Shown here: positions 17,476 through 30,139 of the stretch, piece after piece
Layout: every line of letters starts with the position of its first letter
Position numbering within the stretch: position 1 is the stretch's first letter
The notes under the pieces: generated by a model
What the model was told of the DNA's origin: nothing
Seen by the model: the letters and a program-made list of their open reading frames with translations, nothing else
Database searches by the model: none
Assembly (NCBI GenBank): GCA_937867025.1
Contig: CALMKH010000272.1
Span: 1-51,266 of the forward strand
Origin: an uncultured Bacteroidota bacterium
GTDB lineage: Bacteria; Bacteroidota; Bacteroidia; NS11-12g; UBA955
Reading direction: 5' to 3'
Length of the DNA: 51,266 nucleotides
Program-made: the position numbers and the translations under genes

Positions 17476-18159
17476 TCAGATCCAGGGGATCGGCTGATCC
17501 GAGCTGCTGAATTCCCGGTCTTTTATATGCCAGAACAATGTGCCGTGAGCCGAGGCGAGCTCGATATCGTGTGTCGAGATTATAATGACCTTGTTGCGTG
17601 ATATGGCAATATCCCTGAGGTCCTTGAACAATTGTATCTTGGATGGATAATCCAGGAAAGCGCTGGGCTCATCCATCAGTATGACTGGGGTGTCCTGCGC
17701 CAGGACTCTTGATACATTGGCCTTTTGCCATTCCCCGTCGCTGATCCGGTTCAGGTGTTTGTCTCCTAGGTGCTTAATGTTCATCAGTCCCATGGCCTCA
17801 TCTATCCGTGAGTCGTTCTGCATGGCATTCCAGCGTTTTTGTTCAAACGGAAACCTGCCGAACGCCACCATTTCACGAACGGTAATATAGTCTTCATTGA
17901 TCCTGTTTGTGCTCGCAAAAGCGATGAGCCGTGCTGTTTCCCTGGCATTAAGCCTGGACAATTGCTGCCTGTTTATCAGGATGCTGCCGCTGATGGGCGG
18001 TATAAGGTGTGCGATGGTTTTCAGCAGGGTGGATTTGCCGCTGCCGTTCACTCCGGTCAGAATCACGAGTTCACCTTTTTCTATGTCGCAGTGCACATTC
18101 TTGACCAGAATGCTTTTCCTGCCGATATCGAGATGCGCTATTTCAAGCAATTGGTTCAC
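17476..18159 (-). CDS. ABC transporter ATP-binding protein, FecE/BtuD type
   Basis: 227 residues. The nucleotide-binding motifs are Walker A GVNGSGKST, a Q-loop-like AFASTNR, a signature that reads ISDGEWQKANVSR instead of LSGGQ, Walker B VILMDEPS and the switch histidine ISTHD. The start is GTG at 18159, one nt after the stop of the FecCD permease gene (TGACGTG). The two are therefore coupled and should form one importer. Substrates of this class are ferric siderophores, haem or vitamin B12. No substrate-binding protein or TonB receptor lies in the window, so the ligand stays open. The altered signature should still be functional because the Gly-Glu core is kept. Confidence 0.85.
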   Translation of the reverse strand: MNQLLEIAHLDIGRKSILVKNVHCDIEKGELVILTGVNGSGKSTLLKTIAHLIPPISGSILINRQQLSRLNARETARLIAFASTNRINEDYITVREMVAFGRFPFEQKRWNAMQNDSRIDEAMGLMNIKHLGDKHLNRISDGEWQKANVSRVLAQDTPVILMDEPSAFLDYPSKIQLFKDLRDIAISRNKVIIISTHDIELASAHGTLFWHIKDREFSSSDQPIPWI

Positions 18160-18160
18160 G

Positions 18161-19123
18161 TCAGTTTCGGTTTTTCAACAGGATATAAATGATAAATGGT
18201 CCGCCTATAAGGGCTGTGGTTACATTGACCGGGATATTGATGTTGGCAATGGGCAGCGATGAAATAATATCACTTACCAGTGACATGCAGCAACCCATAA
18301 GCGCATTCAAGGCAAGCAGTTTTTTGAAATTCGAGGTTTTGAACAGCAACCTGACCGCATTGGGAATGGCCATCCCGATAAAAGCGACCGGTCCGCAATA
18401 TGCGGTGGTGATTCCGGCAAGGATACCTGTGCATGCCAGCAATTGCATGGAAATGCTTTTTGTATTCACTCCCAGCGTGCGCGATACGTCGTCGCCTAAA
18501 AGCATTACCGACAGGGAAGGCATCAGGAACATAGCCCATAACAGGCCCAGGCTGCAGGTAACCACAAGGATTGCCAGGTCAATGCCGATCACCTGGTTGA
18601 AGGAACCCATGCTCCATAATGTGAAATTCTTAAGATCTGTCGGTATGGCGAGATAGCTGAGCAGTCCCTGCAGGGCGCCGGTAAGCTGACCGATGATAAC
18701 CCCGAAAAGCAGGATAATGGCCCCATAGCCGTAACGGGAGGAAACGCCCAGTATCAGCAGCAGAATGCTGAATGCGCCTATAAATCCTGCCAGGGAAATA
18801 CTGATGGCGCTGTGCAGGAACGGAAAAAAACTGCTTCCTATTATGACAAGCCCTACGGCAAATGACGAACCGGAACTTACACCAAGGATATAAGGACCCG
18901 CGAGGTTGTTCCGGAACAATTGCTGAAGGATGAAGCCCGATACGGCCAGTGCCATGCCTGCAAAAAGTGCCGTGATGGTTTTAGGCATCCTGAATTGCCA
19001 TAAAATATGCTCTTGCATGGCGTTTTCAGGGCTTGGAGGTATAAAATCGGGAAATACAAACAGGCTCGATATCAGTAGTAGCAATAAGGTGCTGATAATG
19101 AGTATAATGTATTTTACAGACAT
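18161..19123 (-). CDS. FecCD-family ABC transporter permease
   Basis: 320 residues with about nine to ten hydrophobic helices. Family hallmarks are WQFRMPKTITALFAGMALAVSG, LFRNNLAGPYILGVSSGSSFAVG, the ATPase-contact region MLLGDDVSRTLGVN, and GPVAFIGMAIPNAVRLL. It belongs to the permeases for iron-siderophore, haem and cobalamin uptake in the inner membrane. It is the first gene of a two-gene unit with the ATPase and is divergent from pckA. I see no cobalamin riboswitch in the 165-bp gap, which is too short for one beside the pckA promoter. Confidence 0.9.
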   Translation of the reverse strand: MSVKYIILIISTLLLLLISSLFVFPDFIPPSPENAMQEHILWQFRMPKTITALFAGMALAVSGFILQQLFRNNLAGPYILGVSSGSSFAVGLVIIGSSFFPFLHSAISISLAGFIGAFSILLLILGVSSRYGYGAIILLFGVIIGQLTGALQGLLSYLAIPTDLKNFTLWSMGSFNQVIGIDLAILVVTCSLGLLWAMFLMPSLSVMLLGDDVSRTLGVNTKSISMQLLACTGILAGITTAYCGPVAFIGMAIPNAVRLLFKTSNFKKLLALNALMGCCMSLVSDIISSLPIANINIPVNVTTALIGGPFIIYILLKNRN

Positions 19124-20953: not shown

Positions 20954-21160
20954 TTAAGATGGCTGACGCGCTTTCCTCTTTTTCCTGACATAGAAAACGA
21001 TCCCGGCAAACACAGGGAGAAAGAGGAAATAACTGTTATGCCAATAGCCATTTCGGTGCAGATAGGATCCCAGGAAGATAATGATTGTCCATTTCAGAAG
21101 CACGTATGCACCAATGGAGATAAGTGTCTTGCCTGATATTTTTTTAACGTTTTTTAGCAT
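20954..21160 (-). CDS. Small two-helix membrane protein (68 residues)
   Basis: The ATG at 21160 gives 68 residues. A basic N-terminus (MLKNVKKISGKT) is followed by two hydrophobic helices, about residues 12-31 (LISIGAYVLLKWTIIIFLG) and 42-57 (NSYFLFLPVFAGIVFYV), and a strongly basic end (RKKRKARQ). It starts 7 nt after the porin stop, so it is the last gene of the cytochrome/Rieske/porin operon. No family is recognised. A role as a small inner-membrane subunit or partner of the operon's redox proteins is inference only. Confidence 0.6.
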   Translation of the reverse strand: MLKNVKKISGKTLISIGAYVLLKWTIIIFLGSYLHRNGYWHNSYFLFLPVFAGIVFYVRKKRKARQPS

Positions 21161-21167
21161 TGTTTTA

Positions 21168-22415
21168 TTAAAAATAAGTGGAAAGACCGAACTGGATGAC
21201 CCCTGTCCTCGCGGGATCATTATTCAAAAGGTCGGTTTCCTCCGAATACCTGTAGTTGAACCTTAATACCGTGGTACCGACCGGTCTGAAGGCTATGCCG
21301 GGAACTATAGCCCATATTTCATCACCGATACGGCCGCCGGTTTCATTGAATGTTCCCTTGTTATAATCAACCGCTTCGACACGGAGAACGACATTAAGCC
21401 TGGCTTTGTCCCATCCAAACATACGACGCTGGAGGACCGTTCCGACAATATCCAGAAAACCACCTGATTGCCGTGTTCCGAATATCTGGCTATAGGTTGC
21501 CGGCACTTCCACCATGACACTGGCATATTCACCGAGCAGGGTAAGCCTGTTCTTGAGAAGTGTTGTGTTGAAATCTACAGCCAGGACCCGCATCCGTCTT
21601 TTTTCATCCAGTACCAGGCCGTCCTCCCGGAACTTGTTGTAAACACCTCCCATATACGATAAGCCCAGTTCGCCTATCCGGCGGTTTCTGAAAGCAATCT
21701 TACCCGTAAAAATAGGAAGTCCGCTGTTATTTTCTTCAAACCTTTCGGGATTTAATTTGCCCGCAGCCAGCGAAGTCCTGTTGTCCTCATTCGCTATGAT
21801 CCTGTCATCAAAACCATTGGTCAGGTAAGCCTCATAACCGATTGTCAGTTTCCTTGAAAAGTACTTGCCATACAAGCCAAACCCTACATTTGAAAGCGTT
21901 GAAGGAATAATCGTTGTTGCAGAGACCGGCCTGTCGATAAAGTCCCATCGCGGACCATCGTGATTCTGGTTAAAGGCGCCTATCGGATTCATTACTATGC
22001 CCCCGCGAAGGTTGAGCAGGGGGTGGAATTCGAGATCCATAGCCGCAAACTCAAGGTTGATTTCCTTGGTGCCGTCCTCGAATTCCAGTTCCGAAAGAAA
22101 CTTGATCCTCCTGGCGATCGTGGATGAAAAGAACAGGGTTGTGCGCCTCATCTGGAAAGAAAGCCCTTCGGACACTCCATCGGTTGCAGCATACTGGGTA
22201 TTGGCTTCAATATAACCGCCAATGGCTATCGGGAGTTTCCCGACCGACAGGAAAGGCCGGTTATAAACGGCATCCATGTTCATTTTTTGCCTGCCTGTAT
22301 CGGTTGGCTGGCGATTGACGTGCGCACTGTCCTTCTGGGCAGAAGCTATGCTGGTAATGCCTGAACACAGCAGCAGTAATACAATGTGTTTAAAGTGTGA
22401 TATAGATATTGTCAT
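21168..22415 (-). CDS. Outer-membrane porin, phosphate-selective porin (OprO/P)-like
   Basis: 415 residues from the ATG at 22415, giving a signal peptide (HIVLLLLCSGITSIASAQ). That ATG overlaps the end of the Rieske gene by 26 nt, so translation is coupled. The mature chain is a long series of amphipathic strands typical of 16-strand porins, and it ends FGLSTYF with the terminal aromatic residue. The OprO/P-like pattern shows in RRTTLFFSSTIARRIKFLSELEFE, GGIVMNPIGAFNQNHDGPRWDF and YRYSEETDLLNNDPARTG. It should form a channel in the outer membrane. The transported solute is not evident; the operon context suggests a metal complex, anion or haem-related ligand (inference). Confidence 0.8.
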   Translation of the reverse strand: MTISISHFKHIVLLLLCSGITSIASAQKDSAHVNRQPTDTGRQKMNMDAVYNRPFLSVGKLPIAIGGYIEANTQYAATDGVSEGLSFQMRRTTLFFSSTIARRIKFLSELEFEDGTKEINLEFAAMDLEFHPLLNLRGGIVMNPIGAFNQNHDGPRWDFIDRPVSATTIIPSTLSNVGFGLYGKYFSRKLTIGYEAYLTNGFDDRIIANEDNRTSLAAGKLNPERFEENNSGLPIFTGKIAFRNRRIGELGLSYMGGVYNKFREDGLVLDEKRRMRVLAVDFNTTLLKNRLTLLGEYASVMVEVPATYSQIFGTRQSGGFLDIVGTVLQRRMFGWDKARLNVVLRVEAVDYNKGTFNETGGRIGDEIWAIVPGIAFRPVGTTVLRFNYRYSEETDLLNNDPARTGVIQFGLSTYF

Positions 22416-22830
22416 TGTCTGTTCTGGTCTTGAATGTTTTGAGGTTTTCTTCGGCAGGAGGGTTCTGTACAACGCCGCTGTTTGAAAATTCGCTGCCATG
22501 ACATGGGCACACCAGGTAATCTCCGTGAGGCTGTAGTTCGCAGCCCTTATGCGTGCATTCCATCAAAAGGGCGGTATACATATTTTCCCCCGTCTTATAA
22601 ATGCAGACAGGAAAAGTAAATTGATCAGGCTTAACAAGCACATATTTTCTTTCTGTGCTTTTATTGTTTTTAATATGCGTGAATTCTGCTTTTTTAATAA
22701 TGAATTCATTATTGCTGACCGTTCCCTGGGCGAAATGACTGCTCGAACCGCAACTTTCAAGAAACGTTGGAAAGGCGAGGGCTCCGAGGCATGCAAAACC
22801 ACACTCTTTTATGAATTTTTTTCTGTCCAT
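22390..22830 (-). CDS. Rieske [2Fe-2S] protein, exported
   Basis: 146 residues. The N-terminus has a basic start (MDRKKFIKE), a hydrophobic core (FACLGALAFPTFLESC) and a likely lipidation cysteine at 27, so it is an exported and probably lipid-anchored protein. The Rieske motifs are complete: CTHKGC (ligands Cys92, His94) and CPCHGS (ligands Cys108, His111), with Cys97 and Cys110 placed for the usual disulfide. A one-domain electron carrier of this kind is not part of a bc1 complex here, as no cytochrome b gene is near. Its start overlaps the stop of the di-haem cytochrome gene (TAATG), so the two are made together. Confidence 0.9.
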   Translation of the reverse strand: MDRKKFIKECGFACLGALAFPTFLESCGSSSHFAQGTVSNNEFIIKKAEFTHIKNNKSTERKYVLVKPDQFTFPVCIYKTGENMYTALLMECTHKGCELQPHGDYLVCPCHGSEFSNSGVVQNPPAEENLKTFKTRTDNDNIYITL

Positions 22831-24038
22831 TACAAAGATTTGAGGAAAGTGATCAGTTGCTGTTTTTCGTGAGCTGAAAGCGCATTGTATTTATCCCGTC
22901 TAGAACTGGCTTCACCTGCATGAAAGGAGATGGCTTCCTCAATACTGTGAGCTCGTCCGTCATGCAAAAGAAAATACTGCCCTCCCTGCGATTTCGGTGC
23001 CAGGCCCAAACCCCATAAAGGGGCGGTCCTCCACTCCGAAGTTTTTGCACTTCCTTCGGTATAACCGTCATCAAGGGGCGGGCCCATATCGTGCAGGAGC
23101 AGGTCAGTATAGGGGTGAAATTCTTTATTGGAGAGACCCTCAAGAGGAGAATATCCCGTTTTCAGGGTGGACTTATGACAGCTGTTGCAGCCGATCTTAT
23201 TAAAAATAGTTTTGCCTGCCATGACATCCGGATCGTCCTGGTCACGTTGTACTGGAGCTTTTAATGTCTGAAGATAGAAAACAACATCATGCACGGTGGA
23301 TGAGGAAATTTCGGGATCGATATCTTTCAGCGACCATGCGTCGAGAGGGTTATAAACCGAGGTGATGCCTATGTCCTGGTTATAAGCCGTGACGGTTTGC
23401 TGGAGCAAGTTAAAGGTAGCTCCTTTTTTCCCGAAACGGCAAAGGTATTTCCCCCCCTGCGTGACGCTTCCCGGGCCAGGTGTTATGTATGAAGGCAGGT
23501 ATGACCAGTTGGGGACTCCGGAAATGCCGTCTCCGTCGAGGTCGTCAGGGTCTGCCATAGCCAGAATATCCGCTTCGGGCACCAGTTCGATAAATCCTCC
23601 CCCTGTGACAATAGGCGGGGTCAATCTGGAAACAGGTGCGCCTGCAGGAAGTTTTTCCGGATGATATCCCGGAACGGCCCTCACCTGAAGCAACGGGCCT
23701 CCCTGATCGAGGAATTTATTTCCTGTGCTGTCTGACTGCCCGAAACGTGTCAGGGTGGTGAAAGGATGTCCCTTGCCATCGGCGATGTGACAGCTTCCGC
23801 AACTCGTGGCGACGAAGACCGGTCCCAGCCCGGTTTCGGGCGTAAACACCTGGTCGTTAAAAGCTACATCACCCCTGAGGTGTTGCTGGTTCTGTTCATA
23901 TGTCAGCGATTCGACCGGGCCATCAAGTACCTCGTCGTCACTGGGAGCTCCCGGCAATATTTTCCTGCAGGAAACCACCAGTATGAGAAGCATGAAGGCC
24001 AGGGCGGCGATGAAGTAATGTCTGTTCATGATGTGCAT
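22830..24038 (-). CDS. Di-haem oxidoreductase (DHOR/DUF1111) lipoprotein
   Basis: 402 residues (ATG at 24038; the ATG at 24029 is also possible). The signal sequence ends in a lipobox (LILVVSC, Cys24). Two c-type haem sites are present, CGSCH (80-84) and CNSCH (284-288), with a Ca-binding-like DPDDLDGDGISG between. Further DUF1111 marks are LQVRAVPGYHPE, RTAPLWGLG, FLLHDGRAHSIEEAI and FHAGEA. The family is related to MauG/cytochrome c peroxidases and is often found in iron-uptake loci with imelysins; no imelysin is present here. The gene opens the operon, under a promoter that carries a DtxR-type palindrome. Confidence 0.9.
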   Translation of the reverse strand: MHIMNRHYFIAALAFMLLILVVSCRKILPGAPSDDEVLDGPVESLTYEQNQQHLRGDVAFNDQVFTPETGLGPVFVATSCGSCHIADGKGHPFTTLTRFGQSDSTGNKFLDQGGPLLQVRAVPGYHPEKLPAGAPVSRLTPPIVTGGGFIELVPEADILAMADPDDLDGDGISGVPNWSYLPSYITPGPGSVTQGGKYLCRFGKKGATFNLLQQTVTAYNQDIGITSVYNPLDAWSLKDIDPEISSSTVHDVVFYLQTLKAPVQRDQDDPDVMAGKTIFNKIGCNSCHKSTLKTGYSPLEGLSNKEFHPYTDLLLHDMGPPLDDGYTEGSAKTSEWRTAPLWGLGLAPKSQGGQYFLLHDGRAHSIEEAISFHAGEASSRRDKYNALSAHEKQQLITFLKSL

Positions 24039-24051
24039 AATGTTTCGGTTG

Positions 24052-24083
24052 CAAAAATATATAAGTTAGACTAATCTAACAAA
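24052..24083 (-). promoter_or_regulatory. Promoter of the redox operon with embedded DtxR-type operator
   Basis: On the minus strand a -33 TTTG (24080-24083) and a -7 TATTTTTG (24052-24059) are 20 nt apart. The 16-bp palindrome GTTAGACTAATCTAAC (24065-24080, plus strand; arms GTTAGA/TCTAAC) fills the spacer. A bound repressor would block RNA polymerase. The sequence resembles TTAGG/CCTAA-type DtxR-family boxes. Confidence 0.65.
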
Positions 24084-24103
24084 TTTTATTAGATTTTTTT
24101 TAA

Positions 24104-24111
24104 TATATTTG
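24104..24111 (+). promoter_or_regulatory. -7 promoter element TATATTTG
   Basis: Exact TAnnTTTG match 5 nt before the ATG of the DtxR-family gene, implying a leaderless mRNA. The palindrome at 24065-24080 lies just upstream of where the -33 element would be, so autoregulation is possible. Confidence 0.55.
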
Positions 24112-24116
24112 CGCTC

Positions 24117-24818
24117 ATGTTGTCTTTTACCGAAGAAAACTACCTTAAAACCCTGCTTAAACTCACCATGGATGAAAGGGGCAAGGAAGAGGCGGGAACC
24201 AATGAACTCGCCCTGCATCTTGGTGTGAAACCCGCCACGGTAAACGACATGCTCAAGAAATTAAAGCAGAAGAAGCTGATACAATACGAGAAGTATGGGA
24301 AGATCGCACTGACCAAAACAGGACGGAAAGCCGGACTGGAAGTATTGAGGAAGCACAGGCTGTGGGAAACCTTCCTGTACGAAAAGCTTGAATTCTCCTG
24401 GGATGAGGTTCACCAGGTGGCCGAACAGCTTGAACATATACAGAGCCAGAAACTGGTGGATAAGCTGGACAAATTCCTGGATTATCCTGAGTTTGATCCG
24501 CACGGCGATGAAATACCCAATGCCAAGGGCGAATTCAAATACAGGCATAAAGTAACCCTGTCGCAAATGGAGGCGGGCAAAAGTTGTAAAATGGTTGCGG
24601 TAAAGGACAATTCAGCACCGTTTCTTCAGTATGTCATCGAGGTGGGCCTGGGCATTAATAATCATATGAAGGTGTTGTCGATCCACCCGTATGACGAGAT
24701 CATTCAGATAGAAGTGAATGGCAAAGTATCAAGCGTAAGCAAAAAATTCGCGGACAATATCTTTGTGATCTGCGAAGACTGCATGAAGAACAAGCCTTGC
24801 AAGTTTCACTGCAAATAA
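24117..24818 (+). CDS. DtxR/MntR-family metal-dependent repressor with Cys-rich tail
   Basis: 233 residues. Residues ~1-70 are the winged helix-turn-helix (ENYLKTLLKL, TNELALHLGVKPATVNDMLKKLKQKKLI, KIALTKTGR). Residues ~71-140 form the dimer/metal domain, with candidate ligands His80 and the EQLEH segment (Glu103, Glu106, His107). Residues ~143-215 are the FeoA/SH3-like domain (VTLSQMEAGKSCKMVAV). The last 15 residues hold four cysteines at 219, 222, 228 and 232 (CEDCMKNKPCKFHC), which are not a usual feature of the family. With Fe2+ or Mn2+ bound it should repress genes carrying the palindrome next door. It is divergent from the redox operon, its likely target. Confidence 0.9.
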   Translation: MLSFTEENYLKTLLKLTMDERGKEEAGTNELALHLGVKPATVNDMLKKLKQKKLIQYEKYGKIALTKTGRKAGLEVLRKHRLWETFLYEKLEFSWDEVHQVAEQLEHIQSQKLVDKLDKFLDYPEFDPHGDEIPNAKGEFKYRHKVTLSQMEAGKSCKMVAVKDNSAPFLQYVIEVGLGINNHMKVLSIHPYDEIIQIEVNGKVSSVSKKFADNIFVICEDCMKNKPCKFHCK

Positions 24819-27019: not shown

Positions 27020-30000
27020 CTATTGTTTGAACAGCGGGAAGGATTGACCGTCTATATGAAGCCAGTATAGTCCTTTTTGCATCTTATCCATGTCAATGGA
27101 TACTTCACTGTCGTTACACTCTGCCTCATACACCACAGTTCCCATTGTGTTGTAGAGTCTGATAAAAGTACTTTGTGCAAGCCCTTTTACATGAACCATG
27201 TCGCTGGCCGGATTAGGGTACACGATGATAGTGCCGGCATCAGTTTTACATGAAGAAGCAACAATGTGCGAGAATTCATTTTCTTCAGGCGAAACAATAT
27301 GCAGCCTGAAAAACGTCTCAGGTTTTCCCTTCAGTGAATACGCATAGGAATTCAGTGCTGAATAATTGCCATTGGACAAGACCGTGCCGATGACCGACCA
27401 GATAATACCGTCCTTACTTCCCTGTATGTCATATACGGTGTTCGGGATTTCACTGCTGCTGATCCATTGTATTTTCTCACAATCCGCGCTTAAATGATGT
27501 ATGTCCACAGGCAACGGAGATGTGGCCCCTCCGATTCCGAACAATGTTGTAGCCCCTGATATAAAGGCGAAACTGTTGTGGGTGACGCTGTAAGGGTCTG
27601 ATCCGGTGGGGTTAAGACCGTAGGCGATCCGCGACCATGGATTGAGCACGGCAAGCCTTGAACCGAGTGTGAGTCCAGTATGAGGCATGGCCAGTTCCGA
27701 AGTGCCCGGCCACTGTAACTGGATATCTGCCGTTTGCGCTGAACTGGCTGTGATCGACCAGGTGGCATTGACCACGTCTGTCAGTATAGGGTTATTCAAC
27801 TCGTCTGTAACGCCGGCATTAACCCCAACTGTGAAGTCAGTACCGCTGCAGGAGTTGCAGTTCAGTATTACCGGCAGATACGGGTTATAGCCCACGGGGA
27901 AAACAATGGAGCTGCCGCCGGGCCTTGTGAATCCCCCGCTTCCGTTTATCTTTATATAGGAGCTTGCATTGCCTCCTGTGAGGTTATTGCCCCTGAAGAA
28001 AAGCATATGGCTGTCAAGCGCTATTTTGCCGTTTGAAAGTGCCAGGGTGTTTGTGATGGTGAGATCGGTTCCCAAAGCCACTACATGATTGGTGCCAGTG
28101 GCTCCTGTCCGGTTGAGTGTCAGCGTATGAAGCGTGTCAGCACCTGTTGAAAAATACAGGTGTCCGATACTTGAAGTGCCGGTCCCCCCGATACTCAGGC
28201 TTGATTGCGAACTTCCTATCAGGCTGTTTGTCGCGGACATTGCGGCAATATTGCCATGAATGGAGAGTTTTTTACTGCCTAATGAAAGGTCCCCATCGTT
28301 CAGGGCAAGTGCACCCGTAATGGTTATGGAATCGCCGATTTCAACAGTTCCTGAGCCGTTCACTGATAGTTCGTAAACTTCATTGCTCAGGAGCCCTTGC
28401 GGCAATACCAGTGAACCTGTATTGTTGAAAACAAGGCTTGAGTTGCTGTCAGAAACATCCAGCATTCCTGAAGTGCGCTGTATATCGCTTGCATTCAGAT
28501 CGAGCGAGCGACCGTTTACATCCATGATGCCATCAGAGAACGTGATCGCGGAACTTGTGTTCATTACGATGCCGGTTGACACCTGGGAGAGTGTGACAGT
28601 ATCCGTAATATTGATTATACCGGTCTGGGAAAGGTCCCCGATCCGGAGTGTGCTGCATTCCACCGCGTTCAGTTCATCCGTTGAAAAGCCAAGTGTGGTT
28701 GCATTATCTGTTCCACCCAGGTCGATATCAATGCCTGCTGCGACATAAAGAGCTATGGTTCCGGTACCTGCGGAAAGAGATCCTATTTCAGCCTTGTTGG
28801 CGGTAATGGACAGGTCATTATCGTTGCCGGTACTTACAAAATTATCTCCGGTAAAATTAACACCGTAGCTATTGTCGTGGCTGGTGCCGGTCATTGCAAT
28901 GGTGCCGTCATCGGAAAGAATGCCGGCGCTATCGCTCAGACATATGCCATCGGATGAAGACTGGACTGACGTGGCTGTTCCAGTCAAGGTCAGTGAAGCG
29001 GTTCCCCCGGCATGAACACGTGCGGAATCCCTTATCATAATGCCAATATTGGAGTTGCCTGCGCCGGGGCCTCCGTATCCTTCTATCTGTATATTTCCTC
29101 CTGAAGAGGCCACCCCATACTGGATGTCAACCCCTATCTGTCCGTTATTCGTGCCGTTTCCTCCGTAGCCCATGATCATGACAGTCGCTCCGGCAGATGT
29201 TCCATCGTTGGTAACCAGGGCACCTGAATTATGTATGACCACGCCGGAGTTTCCCGCACTGGAGGCACCAATGCCCCCACCATTCCCAATCACACTCACG
29301 GTGCCGCCGCTTGCAGAAACTACTGTACTGGCGCCATGGATATATATACCGTGGTTATCGTCTCCTGTAGAAGGCCCGCCGGTGCCGAATAATGTGGTGG
29401 ATGAGGTGCCGCCTGCTTTTACGGTTATTCCGCCATGAATATATATGCCATGATTATTGTTGCCTAAATTGCCTCCCAGGGCTTCCATATACACTTCACC
29501 CCCATCGCCGGGATCAGTTTGTACGTTTGCTCCTATATCTATTCCTGAAAAGTTTCCTGAAGCAGGGGTTGGCTGCAGATTGGCCGTAAGGTAAATACCG
29601 CCTGCCTCAGCGGTGATATCAGCCGAAACAACAATAGTTTTGGAAACATTGATGGATATTTCCCCTGTGCCTTTTGATTTAAGCTCATTGTTGACATATA
29701 CGATATCCGCGCCGTTGTTTGTTTCTATCACGATGGATTGATCCGGAGAGGCGCCGACGGCTGTAAGATCGATCCCCCCGGGCCCGATGGTTATCACATC
29801 AAGCCCGTTACTTCCGAGGACTTCGATGCCTGCAAAGGTGTTAAAAGTGACAAGGTCCACCAGGACGGTCTTGTTGATGTTGTTGACTGACACGCCGGAA
29901 GGGCTCCCGCTCAGAGACAGGACCCCAGTACCTATGTTCGCGGTAATGGTTAATGTGTCATTACCTGCATTCAACGACGAACTGAAGTCCGTAACAGTGG

Positions 30001-30139
30001 TTGGCCCTGACATCGATAGGACAATTTTGTCACTTACAACCGATACGGAAATGTTTTGTGCATGGCTATATTGTATGGTCAAAAAACCAAACATGATAAC
30101 AATGCTTTTTTTGATCAAGTGTAGTAGTGTATTGTGCAT
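27020..30139 (-). CDS. Large repetitive beta-helix-like surface protein with T9SS type A sorting domain
   Basis: 1039 residues. A signal peptide ends about residue 27 (IQYSHAQ). Residues ~30-480 are Gly/Ser/Thr/Asn-rich, with repeats of about 40-50 residues of the form NNHGIYIHGG..TV.AGGT (DDNHGIYIHGASTV, NSGVVIHNSGALV, GQIGVDIQYGV, SNIGIMIRDSARV). This suggests a right-handed parallel beta-helix. Residues ~480-760 hold further filamentous-haemagglutinin-like strands. Then follow a C-terminal beta domain and a sorting domain (IIVYPNPASDMVHVKG, MQKGLYWLHID, ending FPLFKQ). No catalytic residues are recognisable. It is probably an adhesive or structural surface protein exported by T9SS. Confidence 0.82.
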   Translation of the reverse strand: MHNTLLHLIKKSIVIMFGFLTIQYSHAQNISVSVVSDKIVLSMSGPTTVTDFSSSLNAGNDTLTITANIGTGVLSLSGSPSGVSVNNINKTVLVDLVTFNTFAGIEVLGSNGLDVITIGPGGIDLTAVGASPDQSIVIETNNGADIVYVNNELKSKGTGEISINVSKTIVVSADITAEAGGIYLTANLQPTPASGNFSGIDIGANVQTDPGDGGEVYMEALGGNLGNNNHGIYIHGGITVKAGGTSSTTLFGTGGPSTGDDNHGIYIHGASTVVSASGGTVSVIGNGGGIGASSAGNSGVVIHNSGALVTNDGTSAGATVMIMGYGGNGTNNGQIGVDIQYGVASSGGNIQIEGYGGPGAGNSNIGIMIRDSARVHAGGTASLTLTGTATSVQSSSDGICLSDSAGILSDDGTIAMTGTSHDNSYGVNFTGDNFVSTGNDNDLSITANKAEIGSLSAGTGTIALYVAAGIDIDLGGTDNATTLGFSTDELNAVECSTLRIGDLSQTGIINITDTVTLSQVSTGIVMNTSSAITFSDGIMDVNGRSLDLNASDIQRTSGMLDVSDSNSSLVFNNTGSLVLPQGLLSNEVYELSVNGSGTVEIGDSITITGALALNDGDLSLGSKKLSIHGNIAAMSATNSLIGSSQSSLSIGGTGTSSIGHLYFSTGADTLHTLTLNRTGATGTNHVVALGTDLTITNTLALSNGKIALDSHMLFFRGNNLTGGNASSYIKINGSGGFTRPGGSSIVFPVGYNPYLPVILNCNSCSGTDFTVGVNAGVTDELNNPILTDVVNATWSITASSAQTADIQLQWPGTSELAMPHTGLTLGSRLAVLNPWSRIAYGLNPTGSDPYSVTHNSFAFISGATTLFGIGGATSPLPVDIHHLSADCEKIQWISSSEIPNTVYDIQGSKDGIIWSVIGTVLSNGNYSALNSYAYSLKGKPETFFRLHIVSPEENEFSHIVASSCKTDAGTIIVYPNPASDMVHVKGLAQSTFIRLYNTMGTVVYEAECNDSEVSIDMDKMQKGLYWLHIDGQSFPLFKQ

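Follow-up and report, generated by a model that had tools for sequence, protein, structure and literature searches.

A conserved DHOR–Rieske–porin cassette beside a DtxR-type regulator in Bacteroidota: a candidate metal-regulated envelope redox unit

The window, a 51,266-nucleotide stretch of DNA from an uncultured Bacteroidota bacterium, carries a conserved unit of three genes, encoding a DUF1111 di-haem protein (DHOR), a Rieske protein and an outer-membrane porin, next to a gene for a DtxR-family regulator (Table 1). The cassette probably serves the DtxR/MntR-controlled acquisition of a transition metal, most likely iron and possibly manganese, with a redox step in the envelope. This reading draws on gene order, a palindromic site, motifs, predicted folds, linkage to metal importers and replacement at the same chromosomal slot, all of which are read from the sequences.

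Table 1. Features of the cassette and its surroundings in the window.
Feature	Position	Strand	Size, basis and remarks
DHOR/DUF1111 di-haem lipoprotein	22830..24038	-	402 aa; ORF call, Pfam, haem motifs, fold
Rieske [2Fe-2S] lipoprotein	22390..22830	-	146 aa; ORF call, Pfam, ligands
Outer-membrane porin, OprO/OprP-like fold	21168..22415	-	415 aa; 16 strands in predicted model
Two-helix protein	20954..21160	-	68 aa; 7 nt downstream of porin; outside conserved unit
DtxR/MntR-like metal-dependent regulator	24117..24818	+	FeoA-type C-terminal domain, 4-Cys tail
Palindromic operator-like site TTAGACTAATCTAA	24066..24079	.	Between DHOR and dtxR; conservation
-7-box-like TAnnTTTG (TATTTTTG)	24052..24059	-	Just downstream of TTAGACTAATCTAA, on DHOR side
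FecCD-type ABC permease	18161..19123	-	Context gene; adjoins PEPCK
ABC ATPase	17476..18159	-	Context gene; adjoins FecCD permease

The original prediction had placed four tightly linked genes in a metal-regulated envelope redox module. The linkage was exact in the ORF coordinates (a 1-nt overlap, a 26-nt overlap and a 7-nt gap), the regulator gene is indeed divergent from that of DHOR, and the DHOR–Rieske–porin order proved to be conserved when searched for across Bacteroidota, being present at 75 of 80 named loci, which are the best 80 of 184 scored and therefore lean to close relatives. Four of the five exceptions are contig ends and one (L068) is genuine; L072, in which the Rieske gene is split into two ORFs, was counted as in order. 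At 78/80 of these loci (best 80 of 184), the Rieske gene directly follows that of DHOR. For the phylum sample, comprising 30 stretches from 29 other genomes (G196 contributed two, and G087 came in through the order search), Rieske followed DHOR in all 30 and the porin was present in 29, the sole stretch without it sitting at a contig start. The two sets overlap, with apparently five contigs in common, and their counts were thus not summed. The three genes co-diverge, with distance correlations of 0.72–0.88 compared with a permutation maximum of 0.42, and their arrangement is not due to chance. Copies of the cassette are carried on plasmids in some species. No description of the trio was found in the freely available literature retrieved for DUF1111, for DUF1111 with Rieske and for other combinations.

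The conserved unit comprises three genes rather than four. The 68-residue protein had no homologue at the 80 named loci (best 80 of 184; phmmer, E ≤ 1e-3, ORFs of at least 50 aa) and was rejected as a cassette member on this ground. Weak homologues were detected in six other genomes with a query of 67 of the 68 residues, and no module genes were apparent beside the three of these that were inspected.

DHOR matched PF06537 with 204.7 bits (Pfam cut-off 22) and contains the haem motifs CGSCH (80–84) and CNSCH (284–288) as well as a lipobox cysteine, Cys24, in agreement with its earlier description as a lipid-anchored DUF1111 di-haem protein. Both CxxCH motifs, Q118, E128, H316, H359, H373 and C24 are invariant in 59/59 aligned sequences. 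The predicted model, in which residues 65–143 of the N-terminal haem region are of low confidence, adopts a MauG/peroxidase fold (Z 12.2, rmsd 3.4, 229 aligned residues). Only one Foldseek match was obtained at E ≤ 0.001, and the PDB sequence search returned only a cytochrome c fragment. Profile alignment with hhalign connected DHOR with the CCP_MauG proteins of relatives at 96% probability, and the spacing of Q118 and E128 equals that of MauG Q103 and E113, numbered as in structure titles.

The Rieske protein scored 46.9 bits with PF00355 (Pfam cut-off 20.3) and carries a Tat-like RKKFIK start, a lipoprotein-type cysteine and a disulphide-type pair (C97/C110). Its ligands C92, H94, C108 and H111 (C-x-H...C-x2-H) are complete, as had been stated, and invariant in 47/47 sequences. 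In the window its gene lies between those of DHOR and the porin, which bears out the remark that it stands apart from cytochrome b; a role as a bc1/b6f subunit was set aside because no cytochrome b gene adjoins. Neither the porin nor the 68-residue protein matched Pfam or NCBIfam at E ≤ 0.01, and no relative of the porin was retrieved by PDB sequence search. The predicted porin model (pLDDT 77.5) is a 16-strand barrel whose best structural matches are an OprO mutant (Z 27.3) and OprP (Z 27.2), at 10–11% identity, so the OprO/P-like assignment stands.

The regulator matched Fe_dep_repress (PF01325), Fe_dep_repr_C (PF02742) and FeoA above the Pfam cut-offs and is the only DtxR-family protein found encoded in its own genome. 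Its conserved metal-ligand residues are H80, E84, H99, E103, E106 and H107. In the numbering of a DtxR reference, a glutamate occupies the place of Cys102, an MntR-like trait; the NCBIfam MntR models scored below their cut-offs. A TTAG-N6-CTAA palindrome occurs in 67/77 distinct DHOR upstream regions, compared with 0.96 in shuffles, and is absent from 10/77, for some of which the start may be misplaced. All 39 strict sites in the 1.23 Mb of the 80 named loci (best 80 of 184) lie at the DHOR promoter. The own genome holds two strict sites versus five for a reversed control pattern, so the case for the site rests on its position. Within 35 nt after the site, a TAnnTTTG box, which resembles the -7 box consensus, is present at 29 of the 67 loci with the site, compared with 2.4 in shuffles. 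A consensus scan, which is uninformative in Bacteroidota, found no sigma-70-like promoter sites. The palindrome precedes dtxR in L177 and L178 and was not found in L171, L172, L173 and L175. In the own genome, FeoB, Nramp and imelysin are encoded on other contigs, where no site was found in the 3.5–4 kb stretches inspected around their genes. We infer that the conserved palindrome is a DtxR-type operator at the cassette promoter.

Importers of divalent metals adjoin the cassette or share its gene run at 11 other loci, a minority. The genes for DtxR, a FeoA-domain protein, FeoB (two ORFs), DHOR and Rieske are co-directional in L172, L173, L175, L177 and L178, with the porin joining the run in four of the five; the proteins of this run were identified with Pfam in L172. 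The genomes with this run are divergent ones. Nramp adjoins the cassette in L171, L040 and L074, with MntH above its curated cut-off in the latter two, and ZIP lies beside dtxR in L038, L065 and L072. Neither FeoB nor Nramp was found in 37 control stretches. Together, the conserved order, the putative DtxR-type operator and the adjoining importers make a metal-regulated envelope redox unit the best reading, and to that extent the original prediction stands, shorn of its 68-residue member.

The chromosomal slot between PEPCK and FrnE holds different genes in sister genomes. In four, it is occupied by porin, Rieske, imelysin and DHOR, and in two, a gene for the same DtxR protein as in the window (77% and 73% identity) stands opposite one for a TonB-dependent receptor, with TTAGACTCATCTAA. 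The two TonB receptors, those of G013 and G008, reached the cut-off of none of the siderophore, haem and B12 receptor models that they matched. As originally reported, there is no imelysin at the window locus; the own genome has one PF09375 match, on another contig. With a profile of one sister-species imelysin, none was found beside DUF1111 at the 80 named loci (best 80 of 184) or in the 30 phylum-sample stretches. A FecCD permease lies beside PEPCK in five sister stretches, and since it is kept at the slot whichever cassette is present, its link with the cassette is unproven. Also in favour of acquisition, a DHOR relative on Thermus pTT27 comes after a run of hemin ABC genes, and Hymenobacter has a divergent ferritin gene.

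In the proposed mechanism, scarcity of the metal would cause the repressor to leave TTAGACTAATCTAA, and the DHOR–Rieske–porin operon would be expressed. The 16-strand porin would let the metal or a small metal chelate across the outer membrane, and the lipid-anchored Rieske protein and the MauG/peroxidase-fold DHOR would exchange electrons with it in the periplasm. The redox-adjusted metal would then reach an inner-membrane importer in a usable state; FeoB, Nramp/MntH or ZIP, encoded alongside in some other genomes, may be such an importer. Repression by the DtxR protein, the identity of the metal, where the proteins reside and the path and direction of the electrons are conjectural parts of this scheme. 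Given an acquisition role, we lean towards a reductive step (Fe3+ to Fe2+), because FeoB, Nramp/MntH and ZIP carry divalent ions. The MauG/peroxidase fold would suit an oxidation by H2O2 no less well than a reduction.

Metal-efflux genes are frequent near the cassette, which the original prediction had not foreseen. Genes for RND, P1B-ATPase, MerT/MerC, DUF6660 or HMA-receptor proteins lie within 8 kb at 55/80 named loci (best 80 of 184) and in 11/30 phylum-sample stretches, compared with 1/37 controls. When the loci were thinned at 85% identity of DHOR, the counts became 25/45 (from the best 80 of 184) and 5/17, again versus 1/37; among same-order stretches, 1/5 had such genes. The controls were picked by position within genomes of the phylum-sample and same-order sets, the named 80 supplying none; some genomes contributed two, and three controls are short contigs. 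This strong enrichment lends weight to a possible toxic-metal role, in which the redox proteins would alter the oxidation state of periplasmic copper or a similar ion, or modify a metal-binding protein, together with RND and P-type efflux pumps. Plasmid copies of the cassette adjoin CusA/CzcA, and the structural matches of DHOR include 6e1c (Z 11.6), a ‘MauG-like protein associated with microbial copper homeostasis’; MbnH, which is MauG-like, may reportedly modify a metal-binding protein. We nevertheless consider tolerance unlikely. The whole 51 kb window and the feoB and Nramp copies are without efflux neighbours, the strict site occurs at the DHOR promoter and never at efflux genes in the 80 loci (best 80 of 184), and what takes its place at the slot in sister species, a TonB receptor or an imelysin operon, speaks for uptake.

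More doubtful still is a defence against peroxide in the envelope, with DHOR as a putative peroxidase fed by the Rieske protein and the DtxR link reflecting co-control by iron and peroxide. The fold of the model, the hhalign result and the invariant, MauG-like spaced Q118 and E128 favour it, but the unit hardly ever lacks the porin, importers join in some genomes, and the genome already has CCP_MauG genes (nine matches on seven contigs). A porin–cytochrome conduit for extracellular electron transfer, reducing minerals or oxidising Fe(II) for energy, is suggested by the single gene run with a porin, a cytochrome and an Fe–S protein but is highly improbable, given the globular peroxidase-like fold with no multihaem wire, the apparent DtxR control and the many host genera that are ordinary heterotrophs; an Mtr-like system was set aside because DHOR has two CxxCH motifs versus about ten haems in an Mtr-type cytochrome.

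Returning to acquisition, we tentatively suggest that the cassette could be a new TonB-independent outer-membrane metal-entry system of Bacteroidota, in which a porin and an outer-membrane-anchored Rieske/di-haem relay would alter the redox state of Fe (or Mn), the system swapping with TonB receptors or imelysin operons at the same site and the Rieske protein, outside any quinol-oxidising complex, acting as a metal reductase or oxidase. If true, this would give a function to a widespread DUF1111 lineage and also to stand-alone Rieske lipoproteins, which can be mistaken for respiratory-chain parts, and would provide Bacteroidota with a route by which metal enters via a porin, readied for FeoB or MntH. 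It would also suggest re-reading data on Bizionia argentinensis, for which the accessible text describes an mliR mutant with lower cell Fe, Mn and Zn and reduced expression of a ‘Rieske’ and a ‘cytochrome c’ gene with consecutive locus numbers, ascribed there to complex III and to cytochrome c, respectively (PMC9478572). Plasmid carriage in some species and the frequent efflux neighbours imply that the cassette bears on the balance between uptake and efflux.

Among known systems, the imelysin–DUF1111 iron loci, namely PA4370–4373 and the iron-regulated BT2473–82 of B. thetaiotaomicron, share the DUF1111 di-haem core with the cassette and, in Bacteroidota, the porin too, as far as the accessible text goes (PMC3143127, PMC10434189). 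In the window's sister species, the imelysin form occupies the same chromosomal slot. The cassette differs in that it has no imelysin and is accompanied instead by a DtxR-type regulator and a conserved site. It possesses a Rieske lipoprotein, as does the sister-species imelysin form; none is named for the published loci in the accessible text (PMC3143127, PMC10434189). EfeUOB likewise combines an envelope redox protein with iron uptake but lacks a Rieske protein and a porin. EfeB, EfeO and EfeU belong to families other than those of the cassette. EfeB has been called a likely DUF1111 member in the accessible part of one report (PMC3143127). An assignment of the cassette as an Efe system was set aside, there being no imelysin alongside. 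MnoP of Bradyrhizobium, an outer-membrane channel for Mn uptake in scarcity, resembles the cassette in its proposed function, and redox partners are undescribed for it in the accessible text (PMC9334652). The cassette porin shares the 16-strand barrel of OprO/OprP (Z 27) but only 10–11% identity, and has no Pfam match. Finally, DHOR has the MauG-like di-haem fold of MbnH and MauG, with MbnH (6e1c) likewise in a metal-homeostasis setting, but its axial-ligand position is probably His373 rather than Tyr, and its partner is a Rieske protein.

The five genes of the original prediction were present and placed as claimed, with correct spacings of a 1-nt overlap, a 26-nt overlap and a 7-nt gap. A lipoprotein-type cysteine is present both in DHOR, the di-haem protein of the DUF1111 family (COG name "thiol oxidoreductase"), and in the Rieske protein. 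Neither the porin nor the 68-residue protein matched any Pfam or NCBIfam model at E≤0.01. Elsewhere in the window, positions 27020–30139 encode a 1039-residue secreted protein with a sorting-like domain at its C-terminus and a homologue of 54% identity in a related genome (G009).

Coordinates of the predicted genes in the window and the support for each
Feature	Positions	Strand	Support
DHOR	22830–24038	-	ORF and strong Pfam support
Rieske protein	22390–22830	-	ORF and strong Pfam support
Porin	21168–22415	-	ORF
Two-helix protein, 68 residues	20954–21160	-	ORF
dtxR, divergent	24117–24818	+	ORF and strong Pfam support

The DHOR–Rieske–porin module is genuine and conserved. The DHOR protein was scanned against genome contigs, which returned 184 relatives; the best 80 were retained as named loci, from Chitinophagaceae, Pedobacter, Flavobacterium, Saprospiraceae, Cyclobacteriaceae and one MAG labelled Ignavibacteria. 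Among these best 80 of 184, DHOR was followed by the Rieske gene in 78 (with a split Rieske ORF in L072) and the porin came next in 75. The five loci lacking a porin comprised four at a contig edge (L036, L037, L051 and L067) and one genuine exception (L068), in which the Rieske ORF was also shortened. Across the phylum, DHOR was detected at E≤1e-90 in 29 of 395 sampled genomes, the window's own included. A phylum set was assembled of 30 stretches from 29 genomes, i.e. 28 of the DHOR-positive genomes plus G087 from a same-order search; the Rieske gene followed DHOR in all 30 and the porin was found in 29, the remaining stretch lying at a contig start. The gene order thus held across Bacteroidota as predicted, and 47 of the 80 named loci also had the accompanying DtxR gene within their stretch. 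The 68-residue protein had been proposed as a further member, a claim that fell, as the 80 loci yielded no homologue. The correlation of pairwise distances among DHOR, Rieske protein and porin was 0.72–0.88 (64–67 loci; permutation maximum 0.42), whereas that of the trio with DtxR was 0.49–0.57 (32–34 loci), which indicates that the trio moves as one cassette to which DtxR is less tightly coupled.

The intergenic region between DHOR and dtxR contains TTAGACTAATCTAA at 24066–24079. Of 77 distinct regions preceding DHOR, 67 carried this palindrome, TTAG-N6-CTAA, a candidate operator, whereas 100 shuffles led us to expect 0.96 and never gave more than 4; the carriers included loci without an adjacent dtxR, such as several from Pedobacter. 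Its strict form, TTAGRYNNRYCTAA, was found in 39 of the 77 (0.12 expected), and the 80 loci, 1.23 Mb in total, had no strict site other than these 39 at the DHOR promoter. A TAnnTTTG box, presumably the Bacteroidota -7 element, started at most 35 nt downstream of the site in 29 of the 67 site-bearing loci (2.4 expected), most commonly at an offset of 5 nt. The window's own genome has two strict sites, one in the window and one within an LRR-like ORF, a count uninformative by itself because a reversed control pattern was found five times. On a Hymenobacter sp. HDW8 plasmid (L273), DHOR and a ferritin gene are transcribed divergently, and TTAGATTAGTCTAA precedes the annotated start of DHOR by 75 nt.

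A single DtxR-family gene was found in the window's genome, which is 93.7% complete. The nearest solved relatives of its product include ScaR and SloR, which are manganese regulators, and alignment with a DtxR reference suggests Glu at the position of DtxR Cys102, as in MntR. The DtxR proteins of the window's genus (the window's copy, L233 and L236) carry a short C-terminal tail with four cysteines, which the other aligned DtxR proteins lack.

A linked importer gene (FeoB, Nramp or ZIP) was present in 11 loci. Five, from divergent genomes (L172, L173, L175, L177 and L178), have a single-strand run in the order dtxR, a gene whose product combines Fe_dep_repr_C and FeoA domains, feoB as two ORFs, DHOR and Rieske, with the porin ending the run in four; Pfam was applied to the L172 proteins and FeoB profiles to all five. 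The site lies upstream of dtxR in L177 and L178. Nramp and dtxR follow the trio in L171, while the Nramp protein scored above the curated MntH cut-off in L040, where its gene follows dtxR, and in L074, where it lies between dtxR and the divergent DHOR gene. A ZIP gene follows dtxR in L038, L065 and L072. The FeoB-N profile matched 1/80 named, 6/30 phylum and 0/37 control stretches, the latter drawn from phylum-sample and same-order genomes; the Nramp profile matched 2/80, 1/30 and 0/37, respectively. The protein between dtxR and the split feoB (L172:4657–5676, L173:813–1826, L175:4504–5535, L177:4590–5702 and L178:11461–12435) has about 340 residues, with an N-terminal hydrophobic stretch followed in the L172 copy by the DtxR-type metal-binding domain Fe_dep_repr_C and FeoA, and resembles a metal sensor that is held at the membrane and acts for FeoB. 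On plasmid pTT27 of Thermus thermophilus HB8 (L271), a DHOR relative of 37% identity lies behind a same-strand hemin/iron ABC transporter gene run.

In the window, the trio has PEPCK on one side and a FrnE-like/ABC-F pair on the other. This slot, or the genome's own DHOR, was read in twelve genomes of the same genus. In four of them (G015, G011, G010 and G005), the interval from PEPCK to the FrnE-like gene contains porin, Rieske, imelysin and DHOR genes in that order, and G011 and G010 have additional genes behind this cassette; G014 has the imelysin form at another place. At the slot in G013 and G008, a window-type DtxR (77% and 73% identity) faces a TonB-dependent receptor scoring below the NCBIfam cut-offs, with TTAGACTCATCTAA close to the receptor gene start (chosen by hand in G008). 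The stretches of G001, G002 and G006 lacked both PEPCK and FrnE, and those of G009 and G016 were interrupted at contig ends. Accordingly, one regulator with its site appears to act on a receptor in some species and on the trio in another, while elsewhere the slot is occupied by an iron-type gene run. A FecCD permease gene adjoins PEPCK in five sister stretches, with its ATPase seen in four.

The DHOR model had a pLDDT of 74, low over residues 65–143, and Foldseek returned one match at E≤0.001. In a second structural comparison of the model, the best matches were MauG (Z 12.2, rmsd 3.4, 229 aligned), a subunit of hydrazine synthase, peroxidases and 6e1c, a MauG-like protein. Alignment with CCP_MauG proteins of relatives by hhalign gave 96% probability and superposed the HDGR motif, from which invariant His373 would correspond to the C-terminal haem's second axial ligand, a Met in many peroxidases and Tyr294 in MauG. 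Invariant Q118 and E128 are ten residues apart, spaced like Q103 and E113 of MauG. In the window's own genome (3.7 Mb), CCP_MauG matched nine times across seven contigs, two of which have two matches each, probably the halves of one gene. The Rieske N-terminus, MDRKKFIK, is Tat-like, with a genuine RRxF in 11 of 47 aligned relatives; the iron-sulphur ligands and Ser113 of the protein are invariant in all 47. The disulphide-type pair C97/C110, present in the window's protein, was complete in 14, absent from 33 and never represented by one cysteine alone, which suggests two redox-potential classes within the family. The porin was modelled with 16 strands and resembled OprO/OprP (Z 27).

Some neighbours would also fit a role in toxic-metal tolerance, the less likely reading. 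Efflux genes (RND pumps, P1B-ATPases, MerT/MerC, DUF6660 and HMA receptors) lay within 8 kb in 55/80 named and 11/30 phylum stretches, sets that share members, versus 1/37 controls (Fisher 1e-12 and 4e-4), and in 25/45 and 5/17 after thinning; plasmid copies in Haliscomenobacter and Hymenobacter had such neighbours too. This enrichment counts against the simplest acquisition reading. None of these genes was found in the window or at the feoB and Nramp copies. Toxic metals that disturb iron and manganese supply could possibly tie the two together.

The likeliest function of the trio is to acquire iron or manganese under the control of DtxR, with a redox step involved. In the portions available, PMC3143127 ties DUF1111 to imelysins and iron uptake; PMC10434189 reports 63–324-fold induction under iron depletion of B. 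thetaiotaomicron BT2473-82, which includes a porin, a "thiol oxidoreductase" and a peptidase M75, among others; and PMC9334652 describes MnoP as an outer-membrane manganese channel. The accessible part of PMC9478572 reports that, in a Bizionia argentinensis mliR mutant, expression fell for a Rieske and a cytochrome c gene with adjacent locus numbers, an imelysin and metal transporters, and that Fe, Mn and Zn were lower. Its authors interpreted the adjacent pair, BZARG_RS03000/RS03005, as respiratory-chain parts; it may be the trio or its imelysin form. Overall, the original idea of a metal-regulated redox module stands as to a conserved module, without the 68-residue gene, and genome context gives good support to a role in iron or manganese supply. 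Compared with the imelysin–DUF1111 iron locus, the trio is a variant rather than a member.
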